38,107 bases of DNA, from positions 1 to 38,107 of IMG/VR virus record IMGVR_UViG_3300036860_000750; one strand, given 5' to 3'. How positions within the stretch are numbered: position 1 is the first letter of the stretch; every line of letters starts with the position of its first letter. The stretch comes from a virus. Shown here in pieces: positions 2,645 through 38,107 of the stretch. Position numbers and translations under genes: made by a program. The notes beneath the pieces were generated by a model, which was not told the DNA's origin, ran no database searches, and was given only the letters and a program-made list of their open reading frames with translations.

Positions 2645-3300
2645 GGCCGGTTCTCCGGCAGAGAACTTCCCGCCAGCGCCGGCGGCGGCCGCTCGCCGCT
2701 CCGCTCCTCGGGCGGCACGAAGGCGTAGCCCAGGACGCGGAGGACGTCGGCTTCTTCCGGCGTCGGCACCGCGATCGCGTACTCGGCCAGGTCGGCGGTG
2801 TAGGGCGCCGGCAGCCGCCAGAGCCGGCCGTCGCGGAAGAAGAAGCCCCGCGGCAGCCAGCCGCCCTGGCTGCGCTTGAGCACGAGCTGCTGGTTGAACT
2901 CGGCCGGGCCGGTGCGGATCAACAGCAGGCAGCCCCACGTCCGCGGCTCGCACGAGAACAGATCCAGCGCCACGCCGCGGTAGGTCAGCCGCTTGTAGCG
3001 CGGGCCGATCGCCTGGCGGCCGTTCTTGTCCAGGCGCGGTGCGAACGTGCCCTCGGCGAGCAGCTCCCGGCAGCGCTCGGCGAGCAGGTCGACCGCGACC
3101 CGAACCTGGCCGAACAGGTCCGCCGGCCGCTGCTCGTAGCGCGGGATGCAGACGACCTCGAGGTCGCCGACGTCGGGCTTGCGCCTCCTGATCGACCCGG
3201 CCACCTCGAGGCGCTCGGTGGCGGTCTCGAGCAGGCGCACGACCTCGGCGGCGAGCACCTCGGCCTCGGCCAGCGGCATGCGCCGCCTCTCCTCGGCCAT
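2641..3300 (-). CDS. DNA polymerase beta-like (family X) nucleotidyltransferase, 219 aa
   Basis: The core reads VAGSIRRRKPDVGDLEVV (residues 33-50). This is the GS-x(9)-D-x-E/D signature of Pol-beta-type nucleotidyltransferases, with predicted metal ligands D46 and E48 and a third acid at D113 in GVALDLF. FNQQLVLKRSQGGWLP (about 135-150) matches the later palm block. The protein lacks the N-terminal 8-kDa and thumb domains of full Pol X (about 330 residues). It may fill short gaps or act on RNA or nucleotides. It lies next to thyX, in a DNA-metabolism context. Confidence 0.8.
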   Translation of the reverse strand: MAEERRRMPLAEAEVLAAEVVRLLETATERLEVAGSIRRRKPDVGDLEVVCIPRYEQRPADLFGQVRVAVDLLAERCRELLAEGTFAPRLDKNGRQAIGPRYKRLTYRGVALDLFSCEPRTWGCLLLIRTGPAEFNQQLVLKRSQGGWLPRGFFFRDGRLWRLPAPYTADLAEYAIAVPTPEEADVLRVLGYAFVPPEERSGERPPPALAGSSLPENRP

Positions 3301-4055
3301 CAGCCGACCGCGAGCATCGCGAAGCTGTGCGGGAAGTGCGGCCGGCCCAGCTCCCGCACGGCGGCTGCGTAGGCGACGATCTCGGCCTGCGCCGTCGTCT
3401 CGTCGAGCCGCTCGTCGAGGAAGTGCAAGACCGCCAGGAGCGAGGCCGTCCAGCGCCAGCGCACGTACAGGCCGTAGGCCGGCAGGAACAGGCGCGCCTG
3501 CTCAGCGCAGATCCCGGCCCCGAGCGCGCGCCGGTGGGTCGCCGCCGCGTGGGCCTGGTGCGCGCCCAGGATCTCCGTCCAGATGCCGGCCTCCGGCAGC
3601 GGTCCGCCGCTGCCCTGCTTCTTGCTCTCGGGCGAGGCGCGCCAGGCGGCCGGGCAGTAGAACGCGGGCTCTTCGGTCACGTACCGCCGGCTGGCCTCGT
3701 TCCAGGCCACGCCGTCCTCGTCGACTAGGTGGGCCGAGCCGACGGCGTAGCGGTGCCACTGGCGCGCGATCATCAGCGGCGCGCGCACCTCGAACGCCAG
3801 GACGGAGTGCCGGAACGGGCTGTTCTCGACGCGCCGGAGCAGGAAGTTGATGAGCCCGACGTCGCGCTTGCCCAGCTCGCGCACCTCTTTCTCGAACGAG
3901 GCGCGGGCGGCGTTGACGACCTGCACCTCGTGCTCGTCGGTGCCGAAGTGCTTGAGCACGCCGACCAGCCGGACGTAGCCGGCGTCCAGGACCGGCACCA
4001 GACCGCCGGGCGCGCCCTCATCCGTGCCGCGCAGCCCCGCGTCGCCGCCCGCCAT
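3300..4055 (-). CDS. thyX: FAD-dependent thymidylate synthase ThyX, 251 aa
   Basis: ThyX makes dTMP from dUMP with methylene-tetrahydrofolate, FAD and NADPH. The signature is spread over RQWHRYAVGS (98-107) and NEASRRYV (119-126), separated by an 11-residue insert; the classical RHRxxSxNExSxRY is compact. VNAARASFEKE (48-58) and a C-terminal FLDERLDETTAQAEI block also fit the family. The ATG at 4053-4055 overlaps the upstream stop as TGATG. A phage thyX boosts dTMP supply for replication. Confidence 0.9.
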   Translation of the reverse strand: MAGGDAGLRGTDEGAPGGLVPVLDAGYVRLVGVLKHFGTDEHEVQVVNAARASFEKEVRELGKRDVGLINFLLRRVENSPFRHSVLAFEVRAPLMIARQWHRYAVGSAHLVDEDGVAWNEASRRYVTEEPAFYCPAAWRASPESKKQGSGGPLPEAGIWTEILGAHQAHAAATHRRALGAGICAEQARLFLPAYGLYVRWRWTASLLAVLHFLDERLDETTAQAEIVAYAAAVRELGRPHFPHSFAMLAVG

Positions 4056-4285
4056 CACCGGCCCTGTTCCGTACGCCGCGGCCGCACCTCGTCCCGGCGC
4101 CGCTCCGCCAGCCGCGCCGACCGGCGCCCGAGCCAGCGGAAGAAGCCCACCCCGTAGCGCGCCAGCACGGCCGCGCCGCCGCGCTGCCCGATCGCCTCGT
4201 AGCGCGAGCGCCCGTGGCGCGCCGCGGTGGCCTCCCCGCCGCGCCGGCCGGCCTCGCGGCAGCTCACCCCGCCGCCGCCGACCAT
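4055..4285 (-). CDS. Small KGG-motif-like basic protein, 76 aa
   Basis: The N-terminal half repeats an RGG pattern: REAGRRGGEATAARHG and YEAIGQRGGAAVLARYG. These are degenerate forms of the KGG repeats of GsiB-type stress and DNA-associated proteins. The rest is strongly basic (FFRWLGRRSARLAERRRDE). No enzyme motif is present. The gene overlaps its upstream neighbour by 22 bp. A nucleic-acid-binding role is an inference from charge alone. Confidence 0.6.
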   Translation of the reverse strand: MVGGGGVSCREAGRRGGEATAARHGRSRYEAIGQRGGAAVLARYGVGFFRWLGRRSARLAERRRDEVRPRRTEQGR

Positions 4286-4446
4286 CGGCCTCCCCCGAGC
4301 ACCCAGCCCACCAGCGCGCCAAGCAGCGCCAGGACGCCGTAGAACGCGGCCAGTCCCAGGCGCCGCCGGCGCCGCCGGCGGCGCAGCGCCAGCGTGTACA
4401 GGCTGCGCAGGACCAGCGGGTCGGCGTGCGCCTTCACTTCGGCCAT
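4264..4446 (-). CDS. Single-pass membrane protein, 60 aa
   Basis: A run of eight arginines (residues 22-29) is followed by LGLAAFYGVLALLGALVGWV, a clear transmembrane helix with a positive-inside N-terminal flank, then a short glycine-rich tail. ATG at 4444-4446 has GGAGAGAGGG just upstream. No family is recognised. It could anchor replication proteins at the membrane or act as a small host-modifying protein; neither is shown. Confidence 0.65.
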   Translation of the reverse strand: MAEVKAHADPLVLRSLYTLALRRRRRRRRLGLAAFYGVLALLGALVGWVLGGGRWSAAAG

Positions 4447-4610
4447 GCCCTCTCTCCTTGGGCCGTGGGCCGGCAAGCGCACGGCACGAGCTGCTCGCTC
4501 TTGCGCAGCTCCCACGGCCGTGCGTGCTCGACCCGCAGCCAGCCCGCGTCGCGGCAGAGCGGACAGCGCACGGAAGGCTGCCCCCCCGGCCACCTGTCTT
4601 GCGATCCCAC
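4434..4610 (-). CDS. Zinc-ribbon protein, 58 aa
   Basis: Found by reading the gap between the replication protein and the membrane protein. GTG at 4608-4610 follows GGGGAGG by five bases. The protein has CPLC (residues 16-19) and CAC (44-46), which together could form a four-Cys zinc site around the segment WLRVEHARPWELRKSEQLVP. The stop overlaps the next gene by 13 bp. The zinc site, the strong ribosome site and the operon position support it. Confidence 0.6.
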   Translation of the reverse strand: MGSQDRWPGGQPSVRCPLCRDAGWLRVEHARPWELRKSEQLVPCACRPTAQGERAWPK

Positions 4611-5495
4611 TCAGACCTCCCCTTTCGGCGCCCGCGGTAGGTCGGCCCCCCAGCCGACGTCGTCGGGGTCGTAGGTTTGCGCGCCCCAATCCGCCGGTCT
4701 CACGTCGCTCGCGGAGGGCGGATCACGCGCCGAGCGCAGCTCGCCCAGGTGCTTGCCGATCGCCCGCGGCGTGCAGCCGACCGTGAACGCGGCCCGGTAG
4801 CGCTCGACCAACCGGGGCACCTCCTCGGGGCTCACCGGCGGGTCGGCGGCCAGCAAATCGCCGATCGCCGCGTCCCATCCGCTCTTCTCGCCCCGGGTGT
4901 TCGGCGCGAACCCGAGCGCGTCGACCAGCGCCGTTCCGAGCGCTGCGCCGGCCTGATCGAGATCTTCGGGTCCGTCCCGTTCTCGTTCAGGTTCGTCGCC
5001 CCGCCCCCCACGAACCTGTATGAGTGCATGGCTGGCCGGCTCTTCTTCCCGGGGACGGGGTACGGGGACGGGTACGGGTACGGGGTCGTGACGCGCGTCA
5101 CGATCCGACTGTGACGGCGTCACGGTCGCCGTCACGCTCGCGTCACGGTCGCCGTCGGGGTGCGCGTCACGGCCGGCGCGGCCGTTGGCGCGGTAACGCG
5201 CGGCGCGGTCGGCCGCGGTGGGATCGGCTTTGTCGTTGTACTGGGCGAAGTCGTGGATCGCGTAGCCGTCGCCGTCGCGGTCCCAGCCGCGTTTGGCGAC
5301 CAGCTCGGCGATCGTGCGCCTCGTGCCCTTGATCGCCCGGACGAGGTAGAGCGCCTGGTCTTCGGTCAAGTAGCCGTGGGTGTGGTGGCGGTTGGCGTAG
5401 GAGATCGAATTGCCCCAGAGGCGGTACGCCTTGTCCGAGAACGACATCACCTTGCCGTTGTCGTAGAGCTGGTCGTCCCAGCGGCCCCACGGCAT
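4611..5495 (-). CDS. Replication initiator-like protein with N-terminal winged helix, 294 aa
   Basis: The N-terminal ~90 residues (MPWGRWDDQLYDNGKVMSFS, AYRLWGNSISYANRHHTHG, DGYAIHDFAQYN) match the winged-helix domain at the front of many phage replication/replisome-organiser proteins. The middle is a low-complexity linker (repeated DRDA and PVPVPVPVP). The C-terminal ~100 residues (GWDAAIGDLLAADPP, FTVGCTPRAIGKHLGEL) look like a small partner-binding domain. No ATPase motif is present, so helicase or polymerase would come from the host. The gene contains iteron-like repeats at 5095-5171, as lambda gene O does. ATG overlaps the HNH stop as TGATG. Confidence 0.75.
   Translation of the reverse strand: MPWGRWDDQLYDNGKVMSFSDKAYRLWGNSISYANRHHTHGYLTEDQALYLVRAIKGTRRTIAELVAKRGWDRDGDGYAIHDFAQYNDKADPTAADRAARYRANGRAGRDAHPDGDRDASVTATVTPSQSDRDARHDPVPVPVPVPRPREEEPASHALIQVRGGRGDEPERERDGPEDLDQAGAALGTALVDALGFAPNTRGEKSGWDAAIGDLLAADPPVSPEEVPRLVERYRAAFTVGCTPRAIGKHLGELRSARDPPSASDVRPADWGAQTYDPDDVGWGADLPRAPKGEV
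4988..5018. repeat. Perfect inverted repeat beside candidate origin
   Basis: CAGGTTCGT (4988-4996) and ACGAACCTG (5010-5018) form a perfect 9-bp inverted repeat with a 13-base loop, inside the replication-protein gene. It is followed by TATGAGTGCATGG, one of the least GC-rich bits of the gene. It may be part of an origin together with the iterons 75 bp away, or a chance coding palindrome. Confidence 0.45.
5095..5176. repeat. Iteron-like repeats inside the initiator gene (candidate origin)
   Basis: GCGTCACG occurs at 5095, 5117, 5140 and 5164, spaced 22, 23 and 24 bp, close to two helical turns. The two central copies extend to the identical 17-mer GCGTCACGGTCGCCGTC. Between 5051 and 5085 there is also a GGGGAC/GGGTAC tandem run that encodes PVPVPVPVP. 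In lambda the origin is a set of iterons inside gene O that bind the O protein. The same arrangement here suggests, but does not prove, an origin. Confidence 0.55.
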
Positions 5496-23204: not shown

Positions 23205-24458
23205 TCAGATGCCGGTGATCGTCGCAAACGCCGACGGCCGGTACACCGCCAGCGCGAGCGCTTCCTCGGCCAGGATCGCGACCTTGTTCTCCACGAAGTA
23301 GGTGCTGTGCTCGGTCGAGAGCACGACCATGACCCCCTCCCGCCGGATGACCTCGGCGAAGGGCCGGAACGCGCCGGTCAGCCCGGTGTTCTCGGTGAGC
23401 CCCGTCGTCTGCCGGACCTCCTTGCCCCAGATCCGCTCCGGGCCGGGGTCGGCCGGCGAGCCCCAGATGTAGATGCCGTCGGCCGTCGTCAGGGTGCGGA
23501 TGTCGGTCCAGTCGTTCGGGTGCAGCACGACCGCGGTCGGCTCGGCGAAGCCGGACCCGGCCGCGCCGCGGACTTTCTGCATCGCCTTGAAGATCGCCGT
23601 CGGGACGGGGTCCGCCCCCTTGGCCTGGGTCTGGATGCCCGCGCGGTTGAGGATCCCGGTCAGGTTCGGCGCCACGCCCGACCCGGTCAGGAGCTGGGTC
23701 TCTTCCTGGCGGCGGACCATGAACATCAGCCGGCCCCGGACCTGGCCCTCGAGCTGGCGGTTGTCGCGGAGCGTCTGCCGGGTGGCGGGTATCCAGGTGG
23801 CGATGTCGCGGACGGTCTCGGTCCGCAGCGTCCACGCCAGCGCCGACTCGGGCTTGGTGCCGCCCTCGGCGACGGCCGCCGCCGCGTTGGTGACGGTCGT
23901 CTCCTCGTAGTAGTCGACCGTGTTCGAGTCGGTGGTGGAATCGAGCATCAGGTCGGCGATGGTCCGGTCCTCCAGGCCCATCTCGACGACCTCGCGTCGC
24001 TGGGCCTGCGGGCTGATCGTGCTCAGCGTGATGAGCGCCTTGGCGTCGGGGTAGGGCAGCGCGATCCGCGCCGTGCCGTTGACGCCCCGGTCGAGCAAGG
24101 CCTTGTACTCGGGCGACTCGGCGATGATCTCCCGCAGGCTCCGGGGCGGCGGCCCGTCCGCCTTGCCGTTCGGGCCGGGCATCGGCGGCCGCGACCCCGG
24201 GGCCGGCTCGTGGGTCGCGCGGTACTGAGCGCGGGCCTCCTCGGCCATCCTGGCCCAGTCGGTCAGCTCATCGCGCTTCTTGCCGAGTTCGGTGAGCTCG
24301 GTGTTGCGCCGGCGGATCTCGTCGGCCTTGGTCTTGCTGTCCCCCTCGACCAGGGTGACCCTGGACATGTCCATCTCGGGGCCGGCCTGCTCGAAGATCT
24401 CGTGCAGGGCCTTCGACTTCGCCGCGATCTCCTCGCGGATCTCGGCCAACGCGGGCAA
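23205..24458 (-). CDS. Major capsid protein (HK97 fold), 417 aa
   Basis: TTG at 24456-24458 follows AGGAGG by five bases. The first ~115 residues are a charged coiled coil (ALAEIREEIAAKSKALHEIF, RRNTELTELGKKRDELTDWA), the scaffolding delta domain that the protease removes. The rest is HK97-like: VAEGGTKPESALAWTLRTET, DIATWIPATRQTLRDNRQLE, PTAVVLHPNDWTDIRTLTTA and a C-terminal IRREGVMVVLSTEHSTYFVE. It forms the shell. A fragment of an HNH nuclease follows the stop. Confidence 0.92.
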   Translation of the reverse strand: MPALAEIREEIAAKSKALHEIFEQAGPEMDMSRVTLVEGDSKTKADEIRRRNTELTELGKKRDELTDWARMAEEARAQYRATHEPAPGSRPPMPGPNGKADGPPPRSLREIIAESPEYKALLDRGVNGTARIALPYPDAKALITLSTISPQAQRREVVEMGLEDRTIADLMLDSTTDSNTVDYYEETTVTNAAAAVAEGGTKPESALAWTLRTETVRDIATWIPATRQTLRDNRQLEGQVRGRLMFMVRRQEETQLLTGSGVAPNLTGILNRAGIQTQAKGADPVPTAIFKAMQKVRGAAGSGFAEPTAVVLHPNDWTDIRTLTTADGIYIWGSPADPGPERIWGKEVRQTTGLTENTGLTGAFRPFAEVIRREGVMVVLSTEHSTYFVENKVAILAEEALALAVYRPSAFATITGI

Positions 24459-24469
24459 GGCGTCCTCCT

Positions 24470-25786
24470 TCAGACCACCGCGCCGTGCAGGCGCGCGAGC
24501 GTGCGCTGGAACTCCAGGTACAGGCGCTTGCCGTCCGGGGACGGCGGGGCGGTCTCGGTCAGCAGGTCGTCGAGCTCGTCGGCCAGGCCGCGCAGGCTGT
24601 CGCGCCAGGCGCCGATCCGCTCGCGCCGCGCGGCCGAGATCGGCCGGCCGACCTTCGTCTCCGCGACCAGGTCGCCGACCGCGTGCTCGAGGTCGTGCAG
24701 CGCCCTGCCGCGCTCGCCGACGCCCTCCTCGGCGGCGTGCCGCTCGAGGTGCCGGCCAGCCCGGGCGGCCGCCGCCTCGGGCAGGTCGGCCTGGGGCAGA
24801 CGGGCGAGGGCGTTGCGCAGGTGAGGCAGGTCGACGTCGCCGCCCTTGTCGTGGTGGGGCAGCTTGCGGAGCGCGCGCGGGACCGTCTTGCCTTCCTCGT
24901 CCTTCTCGCCCCCCGGCAGGATCGCGGCGAACGCGGAGTCCGGTAGGTCGTTCTGGTAGGCCACGTCCCACTCGCGCTTGAACGCGGCGCCGCCGGTGCC
25001 AGCGCAGCCGGTGCCAGCGCCGCTGGCGGGGGCGGCCTTCGCCGCCTCGAAGGTGCCGTCGTGCTCCCCGCAGTGGGCGCGCGCCTCGGCCGCCGTCCAG
25101 TCCTCGGTCCGGTAGCGGTACGCCTGCTCGGTCAGCGTCGTCTCGCCCTTGAGGCGGCCCAGGATCACGTTGTACGGCTTGCCCTCGTGGCGGCGGCTCA
25201 TCGTGCGGAACGTGCCGTCCTGGAAGTCGCCCGGGTCGCGCAGCCGGCAGGCGTGCACGCCCTCCATCGGCTTGGCCTCGGCCGCCTTGGCGTCGAGCAC
25301 GCCGGCGCGCGGCTCGGCCGGGACGGTCACCAGGCTGACCTCGTACAGCTTGATCTTCTTGAGCACCCGGACCTGGTGGGCCCCGCCCCCGGCGGGCCCG
25401 CGGACCATCCGCTCGGCCTGGCGGAACTCCCACTCGAGCGCCTCGTAGCCGATCGATAAGCCCATCGACTTGCCGGCCGCGAGGCGTTCGGCCGTGATCG
25501 AGCGGGCGCGCTGGGCCTCGGGGTGGCTGTGGAACCGGGCCTGGATGAACAGGCCGCGGGCGTCCTCGCGGGCGAGCGTGGGCAGGGCGACCGGGTCGCG
25601 CCAGTCGTGGCCCCAGGCGATGAAGCCGTCGCGCAGGAACGCCGGGATGGTCTCGGCGTAGGCGCCCGGCTCGACGGTGTCGCCGTAGGAGTCGACGCTG
25701 CCGAAGGCCGAGGCGTAGCCCTCGAGCGTGCCGCTGCCCTGGCCGGCGACCTTCGCCTCGGTCAGCGGAAGAGTCTTGGTCTCCAC
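24470..25786 (-). CDS. Prohead protease (HK97-type) with C-terminal extension, 438 aa
   Basis: N-terminal U35-type protease: TLEGYASAFGSVDSYGDTVE, FIAWGHDWRDP (catalytic His) and AAGKSMGLSIGYEALEW (catalytic Ser). The C-terminal ~230 residues carry CRLRDPGDFQDGTFRT, KPYNVILGRLKGETTLTEQA and DWTAAEARAHCGEHDGTFEA, a second module found fused to some phage proteases, plus a helical end. The start GTG at 25784-25786 is chosen over the GTG at 25804, which lies inside the leader hairpin. Expressed from its own promoter. Confidence 0.85.
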   Translation of the reverse strand: METKTLPLTEAKVAGQGSGTLEGYASAFGSVDSYGDTVEPGAYAETIPAFLRDGFIAWGHDWRDPVALPTLAREDARGLFIQARFHSHPEAQRARSITAERLAAGKSMGLSIGYEALEWEFRQAERMVRGPAGGGAHQVRVLKKIKLYEVSLVTVPAEPRAGVLDAKAAEAKPMEGVHACRLRDPGDFQDGTFRTMSRRHEGKPYNVILGRLKGETTLTEQAYRYRTEDWTAAEARAHCGEHDGTFEAAKAAPASGAGTGCAGTGGAAFKREWDVAYQNDLPDSAFAAILPGGEKDEEGKTVPRALRKLPHHDKGGDVDLPHLRNALARLPQADLPEAAAARAGRHLERHAAEEGVGERGRALHDLEHAVGDLVAETKVGRPISAARRERIGAWRDSLRGLADELDDLLTETAPPSPDGKRLYLEFQRTLARLHGAVV

Positions 25787-25884
25787 AAGAAAGAACGGCC
25801 CCACCGCGCCTGAGGCCCGATCCTGGCGCGAGGGCCGTTCTGAACGGGCGAGCTGCCCGTTACGTGCCGCTGTTGGGTTGTGTC
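25787..25884 (-). promoter_or_regulatory. Structured leader of the capsid operon (attenuator or translational switch)
   Basis: About 98 nt without any gene. Hairpin 1: a perfect 7-bp stem at 25843-25861 (AACGGGC/GCCCGTT). Hairpin 2 at 25793-25840: outer 9 bp (25832-25840 with 25793-25801) and inner CGCGCC/GGCGCG. It is followed on the minus strand by TTTCTT (25792-25787), directly touching the GTG start. The hairpin also buries GGTGGGG, the only ribosome-site-like sequence. It can be read as an intrinsic terminator or as a sequestered ribosome site. Confidence 0.6.
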
Positions 25885-25890
25885 GTTGTG

Positions 25891-25919
25891 AGCATGCGAC
25901 CCGGGCCCGCGCCTGTCAA
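25891..25919 (-). promoter_or_regulatory. Capsid-operon promoter
   Basis: A perfect -35 TTGACA (25919-25914), 17-bp spacer and CATGCT (25896-25891) give a promoter with a weak -10. Its -35 includes the TGA of the upstream 63-aa gene. The start near 25884 yields the structured leader. Confidence 0.6.
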
Positions 25920-37520: not shown

Positions 37521-38107
37521 CGCTTCGCCGCCTTAGCCGCCAGCTCGCGCTCGGTCTCCTCCAGGACCGGGCCGTAGGTGTCGACGAAGCTGGTCCAGAC
37601 GTTCTCCGGGTCGTCGGGGGCGGGCAGCTCGACCGCGGTGCCGGGCTTGATGCGCTTCATCCGGGCGAAGATTTCCCGGGCGATCTCGCGCACGTCGACC
37701 GCGGTCGGCGCGGGCTTGAGCGACGGGTTGCGCGCGGGGTCTATCGAGGCGGGCAGCGTCTCGGAGGGCGTGGCCGGCGGCTCGTCCGGTTGCTCGGTCG
37801 CGCTGAAGTAGGCGGCCAACTCGTCGCCGCTCAGCGGCTCCTCCTGGGCCGCAGCCGGGGCCTGGGCCTGCGGCGCGCGGGCGTAGACCGCCGGCACCGG
37901 GGCGCGGGCGGGAGAGGGCTCGTCGACGGCCAGGGTGACCGCGCCCTCGGCGTCGACCTCGGTCCGCGCGCCGAGCGCGTCGGGCGTGTACATCCCGCCG
38001 ATCGAGTCGGGGAAGGCCATCCGCGCCACGGCGCTGATGCAGCGCGCGCGCAGCATCGCGGCCGGGTACTTCTGCCAGGTCTGGTTGGCCAGCAGGCCCG
38101 CCCGCTT
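37517..38107 (-). CDS. recT: RecT-like annealing protein, C-terminal part (continues at 127)
   Basis: This copy contains the last 154 codons plus the duplicated end (37981-38107), so within the window it is cut at its 5' side. It carries MLRARCISAVARMAFPDSIG and MYTPDALGARTEVDAEGAVT. A Pro/Ala/Gln-rich linker (about 200-265) follows, then a C-terminal helical segment (VDVREIAREIFARMKRIKPG, TFVDTYGPVLEETERELAAK). The long disordered C-terminal tail is typical of annealing proteins that bind partners such as host SSB. Confidence 0.75.
   Translation of the reverse strand, partial: KRAGLLANQTWQKYPAAMLRARCISAVARMAFPDSIGGMYTPDALGARTEVDAEGAVTLAVDEPSPARAPVPAVYARAPQAQAPAAAQEEPLSGDELAAYFSATEQPDEPPATPSETLPASIDPARNPSLKPAPTAVDVREIAREIFARMKRIKPGTAVELPAPDDPENVWTSFVDTYGPVLEETERELAAKAAKR
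37981..38107. repeat. Terminal direct repeat, right copy
   Basis: Exact copy of 1-127; see the left copy. Features mapped here duplicate those at the start. Confidence 0.93.

Follow-up and report, generated by a model that had tools for sequence, protein, structure and literature searches.

How are the prohead protease and capsid genes of a phage switched on when the start codon of the protease lies against a hairpin that also hides its ribosome site? This question is raised by the window, the whole stretch of 38,107 nucleotides analysed here, which is an IMG/VR virus record (IMGVR_UViG_3300036860_000750). The record carries identical 127-bp direct terminal repeats at 1-127 and 37981-38107, and thus the genome of 37,980 bp is probably complete. 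Its late genes lie on the minus strand, where the two terminase genes (small, then large) are followed by the portal gene (PF04860, E = 6e-61), a small zinc-ribbon ORF, prohead protease and capsid. An in-frame alternative GTG for the protease is found at 25804, within the second of two leader hairpins (hairpin 2); the alignment with homologous proteases begins near residue 7, and the start at 25786 is therefore favoured. Matches to the C-terminal module of the protease (24700-24955, residues ~278-362) are found in dozens of viral contigs and in some from Bathyarchaeota, in which the protease domain itself is mostly unmatched. A ThyX-type thymidylate synthase is encoded at 3300-4322 on the minus strand (Thy1, E = 3e-25).

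A preliminary description of this DNA had proposed that the protease and capsid genes possess their own promoter and a cis-regulatory leader with two strong hairpins, and the promoter, the leader and both hairpins are all present on the minus strand (Table 1). Transcription is predicted to start at about 25884. The promoter is not called under a stricter 9-of-12 rule; TTGACA-N17-CATGCT occurs once in the window genome and once in a related contig (L178, in G001), in each case preceding the protease leader. The strength of the hairpins is borne out by the fold score of the leader and by shuffling, since a terminator as good as hairpin 2 with its T-tract was obtained in 0 of 100 shuffles. As described, GGTGGGG is the sole ribosome-site-like sequence of the leader. 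No match to Rfam was found in the window at the gathering score. No leader peptide was seen by eye in the window leader, which leaves the suggested ribosome-mediated control without support. One simple explanation for a buried ribosome site is passive: a weak site could hold the protease below the capsid with no protein regulator, and the strong site at the capsid start, together with the buried one of the protease, fits this idea. Such a stoichiometry device, which would not account for the promoter, the T-tract, or the Com gene and Com targets described below, seems highly improbable to us.

Table 1 Features of the protease-capsid control region (window positions)
Feature	Position	Strand	Basis or remark
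Sigma70-like promoter, TTGACA-N17-CATGCT	25891..25919	-	sequence; p = 0.005 vs shuffles
Promoter parts	-35 TTGACA 25919-25914; spacer 17 nt; -10 CATGCT 25896-25891	-	
Leader RNA, ~98 nt	25787..25884	-	sequence; fold z = -3.05
Hairpin 1, 7 bp, AACGGGC-AGCTC-GCCCGTT	25843..25861	-	sequence, fold
Hairpin 2, terminator-like, hides ribosome site	25792..25841	-	-34.5 kcal/mol
Ribosome-site-like GGTGGGG	25799..25805	-	buried in 3' arm of hairpin 2
T-tract TTCTT	25787..25791	-	touches GTG start codon (25786-25784)
Apical element GGCCC-TC-GCGCC-N6-GGGCC-TCA-GGCGC	25806..25836	-	candidate target of Com-like protein
Small C4 zinc-ribbon protein, Com-like, 63 aa	25919..26107	-	GTG start; C-x2-C-x14-C-x2-C
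Prohead protease (Peptidase_S78)	24470..25786	-	GTG start; PF04586, E = 5e-19
Major capsid protein	23205..24458	-	PF05065, E = 7e-38; own ribosome site AAGGAGG

The layout recurs in divergent relatives, which supports the proposal of a cis-regulatory leader before the protease and capsid genes. Relatives were viral contigs from protease and capsid searches, among which 120 non-redundant protease starts were analysed. Of the 42 close relatives, 21 carry a terminator-like hairpin in the 75 nt preceding the protease start codon at p <= 0.05 and 17 do so at p <= 0.01; by the same test, 6 of 67 distant relatives reach p <= 0.05 and 2 of 67 reach -17 kcal/mol. At 28 hairpin loci, a sigma70-like promoter is found upstream (combined P = 3e-14; p = 0.97 at random positions of the same loci), and the RNA predicted from these promoters is mostly 50-105 nt long. 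The start codon, often TTG or GTG, falls on or a few bases from the T-tract in the window, L078, L089, L093, L081 and L088, and likewise in L107, L104, L100, L190, L179 and L167; at these loci, the G-rich 3' arm is the sole ribosome-site-like sequence. L006, L194 and L009 have the ribosome site downstream of the hairpin instead. The leaders do not form one sequence-conserved RNA, as no shared motif was found beyond GC-rich words, small sub-groups excepted. In named, annotated phages with related proteases, the protease overlaps or closely follows the preceding gene in nearly all cases, leaving little or no room for a leader.

Conservation of the stems, on which the preliminary description depended, is seen in L178, which keeps TTGACA-N17-CATGCT, a 7-bp hairpin 1 and a hairpin 2 reaching the GTG, all with different stem sequences. 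The label "attenuator" suits the window in view of its T-tract, but L178, L115 and L109 retain a start-hiding hairpin and have no T-tract. Hiding of the start signals therefore looks at least as basic as termination. The predicted lengths would also suit a small non-coding RNA gene made up of a promoter, a 50-105-nt RNA and a terminator, and mycobacteriophages do produce abundant non-coding RNAs. An RNA product of this kind is not expected to lack any motif common to the leaders beyond GC-rich words, to differ in its 5' part between the close pair L081 and L080, or to place its hairpin on a start codon, and we give this explanation almost no credence.

The gene just upstream of the promoter encodes a small zinc ribbon and is absent from the preliminary description, which had suggested feedback from a protein of the capsid operon; nothing points to such feedback, and the evidence leads to this Com-like gene. 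Its stop codon (TGA, 25918-25916) overlaps the -35 box. A C4 zinc ribbon occupies the position just upstream of the promoter at 19 loci in all, the window included, and among nine Com-positive loci examined the -35 box lies <=31 nt from the Com stop in eight. By Pfam and PHROGs, some of the relatives' ribbons are members of the Mu Com family. The L006 ribbon matches PF10122 with E = 1.6e-9 (37.5 bits, cut-off 22.9), those of L002 (22.4 bits) and L078 (21.7 bits) fall slightly under the cut-off, and several of the ribbons match the PHROG entries gpCom or translational regulator. In a single comparison, the L078 ribbon matches Mu Com with E = 1e-8. In L168, a Com-like gene found by profile immediately precedes the leader, and its product shares 45% identity with the L093 protein across 53 aligned residues.

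The window ribbon is a diverged type that is tied to Com only by weak profile matches. It does not match the Pfam Com model PF10122 at the cut-off; it aligns with a profile of Mu Com and its kin at an hhalign probability of 76% and matches the PHROG entry "translational regulator" with E = 0.0023. Its AF2 model (pLDDT 76) has four short strands, and the fold matches in the PDB are weak. In other phages, it is 43% identical to the ribbon of L115 and about 70-82% identical to that of L272, the value over its full length being about 70%. Judged from sequence, three parts recur: a gene of Com type, a promoter, and a hairpin that is predicted to hide the protease start and in many cases also has the form of a terminator. 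Com genes and terminators are associated in the raw counts (Fisher p = 0.0013), in which L168 is scored as Com-negative because its Com-like gene was found later, and the association is not significant after tree correction.

In phage Mu, Com activates mom by opening the stem that hides the mom start. Its binding site is CC(N)2-3GAG within a hairpin loop that a C-G pair closes, the bipartite form is GAGNNCC(N)2-3GAGNNCC, and the target adjoins and overlaps the inhibitory stem containing the mom GUG start (PMC6483171). The target hairpin of Mu is AUGC-CUGCGA-GCAU. This published target, with a closing C-G and the loop C-N3-GA, is found exactly in the leaders of L078 (GGGC-CCCCGA-GCCC and GCGC-CGCGGA-GCGC) and L093 (GGGC-CGATGA-GCCC and GCGC-CGATGA-GCGC). 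A version with a loop one base shorter is found in L168 (GGCC-CGCGA-GGCC and GGCC-CACGA-GGTC) and, as a single copy, in L109 (GCGC-CTTGA-GCGC). The paired targets of L078, L093 and L168 lie at -64 and at -34 to -38. Three leaders with two targets were observed against 0.08 expected (P = 9e-5), where the leaders of L078 and L093 are similar and thus not fully independent. The systematic scan came after the motif had been sighted in L093 and L078; the motif itself is published. Four of the seven occurrences of the bipartite motif on the + strand of 870 kb lie inside leaders, and the same target scan over the 1,950-bp com/mom stretch of Mu returned the mom site only.

In L078, L093 and L168, the predicted fold uses the 3' arm of the first target as partner for the start-proximal 3' strand of the inhibitory stem, and the two structures therefore exclude each other. 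The layout, its recurrence, the Com homology of the relatives, the published Com target in leaders of relatives and this mutual exclusion can all be read from sequences and predicted folds; we infer that the control is positive. A Com-like protein could also act as a repressor or feedback regulator, lowering protease output by binding the apical loop and stabilising hairpin 2, and in the window type, as with the second target of L078 and L093, the candidate site does form the tip of hairpin 2. Mu Com is, however, an activator, and in L078, L093 and L168 the first target can form only at the expense of hairpin 2, which makes repression very unlikely in our judgement.

The window leader contains neither the GAGNNCC motif nor the CC(N)2-3GAG target hairpin, and the published motif is likewise absent from Com leaders of other subtypes (e.g. 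L187, L190, L179). The window and L115 have almost the same apical element of hairpin 2 (score 22.5, shuffle maximum 12.5), and the proteases of the two belong to different clades. Across 1.9 Mb of fetched DNA, the core of this element occurs only in the window, in L115 together with a contig resembling the same phage, and in recognisable form in L178. The phages with the element are the three in which the window type of ribbon was found; in L178, the ribbon lies ~2.3 kb upstream of the leader with inserted genes in between. The window ribbon may thus bind its own conserved element. Similarity between the leaders of the window and L272 is at chance level. In L272, the stretch from the Com-like gene to the protease leader (2989-5354) holds an unassigned ORF and a DUF5131 gene, with another hairpin behind the Com-like gene. 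Over 18 Com-positive loci, leader similarity goes with that of Com (partial Mantel p = 0.031) but not with that of the protease (p = 0.32). In L104 and L100, the best pair, very divergent proteases are combined with nearly the same leader and Com, and the hairpin shows a compensatory pair change.

The GGCCC of the apical element (25836-25832) has two possible partners, GGGCC (25818-25814) and the 3' arm of hairpin 2. Pairing with GGGCC is estimated to cost 8-14 kcal/mol in free RNA, and a bound protein would therefore be needed to favour it; with such a protein, the window leader might adopt it. RNA-binding proteins select between alternative leader hairpins in the BglG/LicT (RAT) and TRAP attenuators as well. 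Those proteins belong to another family, the genes here are phage head genes, and across the full leader set alternative pairing stays at chance level: intrinsic antiterminator pairing of upstream leader sequence with the 5' arm of hairpin 2 gave a combined p of 0.62.

We consider it fairly probable that the window leader is an RNA switch that gates protease and capsid within the late operon and is operated by the Com-like ribbon encoded upstream. On the best and most economical reading, the protease-capsid operon is governed by a com/mom-like switch, which is often combined with a terminator. By default, hairpin 2 would form and hide the ribosome site, and its T-tract should end most transcripts from the local promoter; we infer that this terminator is functional in vivo. 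The Com-like protein would be produced earlier, from the terminase-portal transcript, and would bind a small leader hairpin built from the 5' arm of hairpin 2. Formation of hairpin 2 would then be blocked, leaving the ribosome site free and transcription unterminated.

As in Mu com/mom, a small C4 zinc-ribbon gene lies just upstream and the start signals are held in an inhibitory stem; the relatives also share a small target hairpin adjoining and overlapping the stem, with the published motif in L078, L093, L168 and L109. Unlike in Mu, where the target gene is the DNA modification gene mom, the genes here are prohead protease and capsid, a promoter lies between regulator and target gene, the inhibitory stem often has a T-tract, and the window ribbon and its target have diverged. 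Literature searches on Com near capsid genes returned no description of such a system, and capsid production is probably switched on here by an RNA-binding protein in a manner not described before. The one role so far known for Com is activation of an accessory gene, mom. If our reading is true, the Com RNA-binding fold controls capsid maturation genes across a broad group of uncultivated phages, the target sites are predicted by a binding motif that was published independently, head production has a testable RNA-level switch, and a small zinc-ribbon/RNA pair becomes usable for synthetic control. It is tempting to speculate further, though we hold this tentatively, that Com-family ribbons are general RNA-binding switches that move, each together with its leader RNA, from one phage gene to another unrelated one, acting here as both antiterminator and translational activator to time capsid synthesis.

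Like the absence of a Pfam Com match for the window ribbon and of the GAGNNCC motif from its leader, about 12 hairpin leaders without a recognised Com-like gene count against a com/mom-like switch. Other small genes fill the slot before the promoter: a GIY-YIG and HTH_17 fusion in L082, an HNH nuclease with a C-terminal extension in L085 and a small protein without Pfam match in L084. The succession of regulator gene, promoter, short leader, intrinsic terminator and late genes resembles lambda Q/pR'/tR' and AlpA, in which a factor loaded onto RNA polymerase relieves a promoter-proximal terminator; the hidden ribosome sites would then be by-products of a compact design. The promoter of the relatives lies mostly 13-77 nt before the terminator, AlpA acts at such a site, and the gene next to the promoter varies as in the Q families (zinc ribbon, HTH_17 in L082, others). 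This antitermination would, however, leave unexplained the Com RNA targets in four leaders and the start-hiding hairpins without T-tract in L178, L115 and L109. Pfam scans of the small upstream proteins found no Q family, the regulator here being a zinc ribbon of 50-70 aa that is unrelated by Pfam, and the placement in the middle of the late operon and the hiding of the ribosome site differ from both systems. We therefore regard it as unlikely. Within the com/mom-like reading, leaders at loci that lack a recognised Com-like gene may respond to other regulators. L009, a locus without a recognised Com-like gene, carries a bipartite GAGNNCC motif and a target-like hairpin at -85 of its protease.
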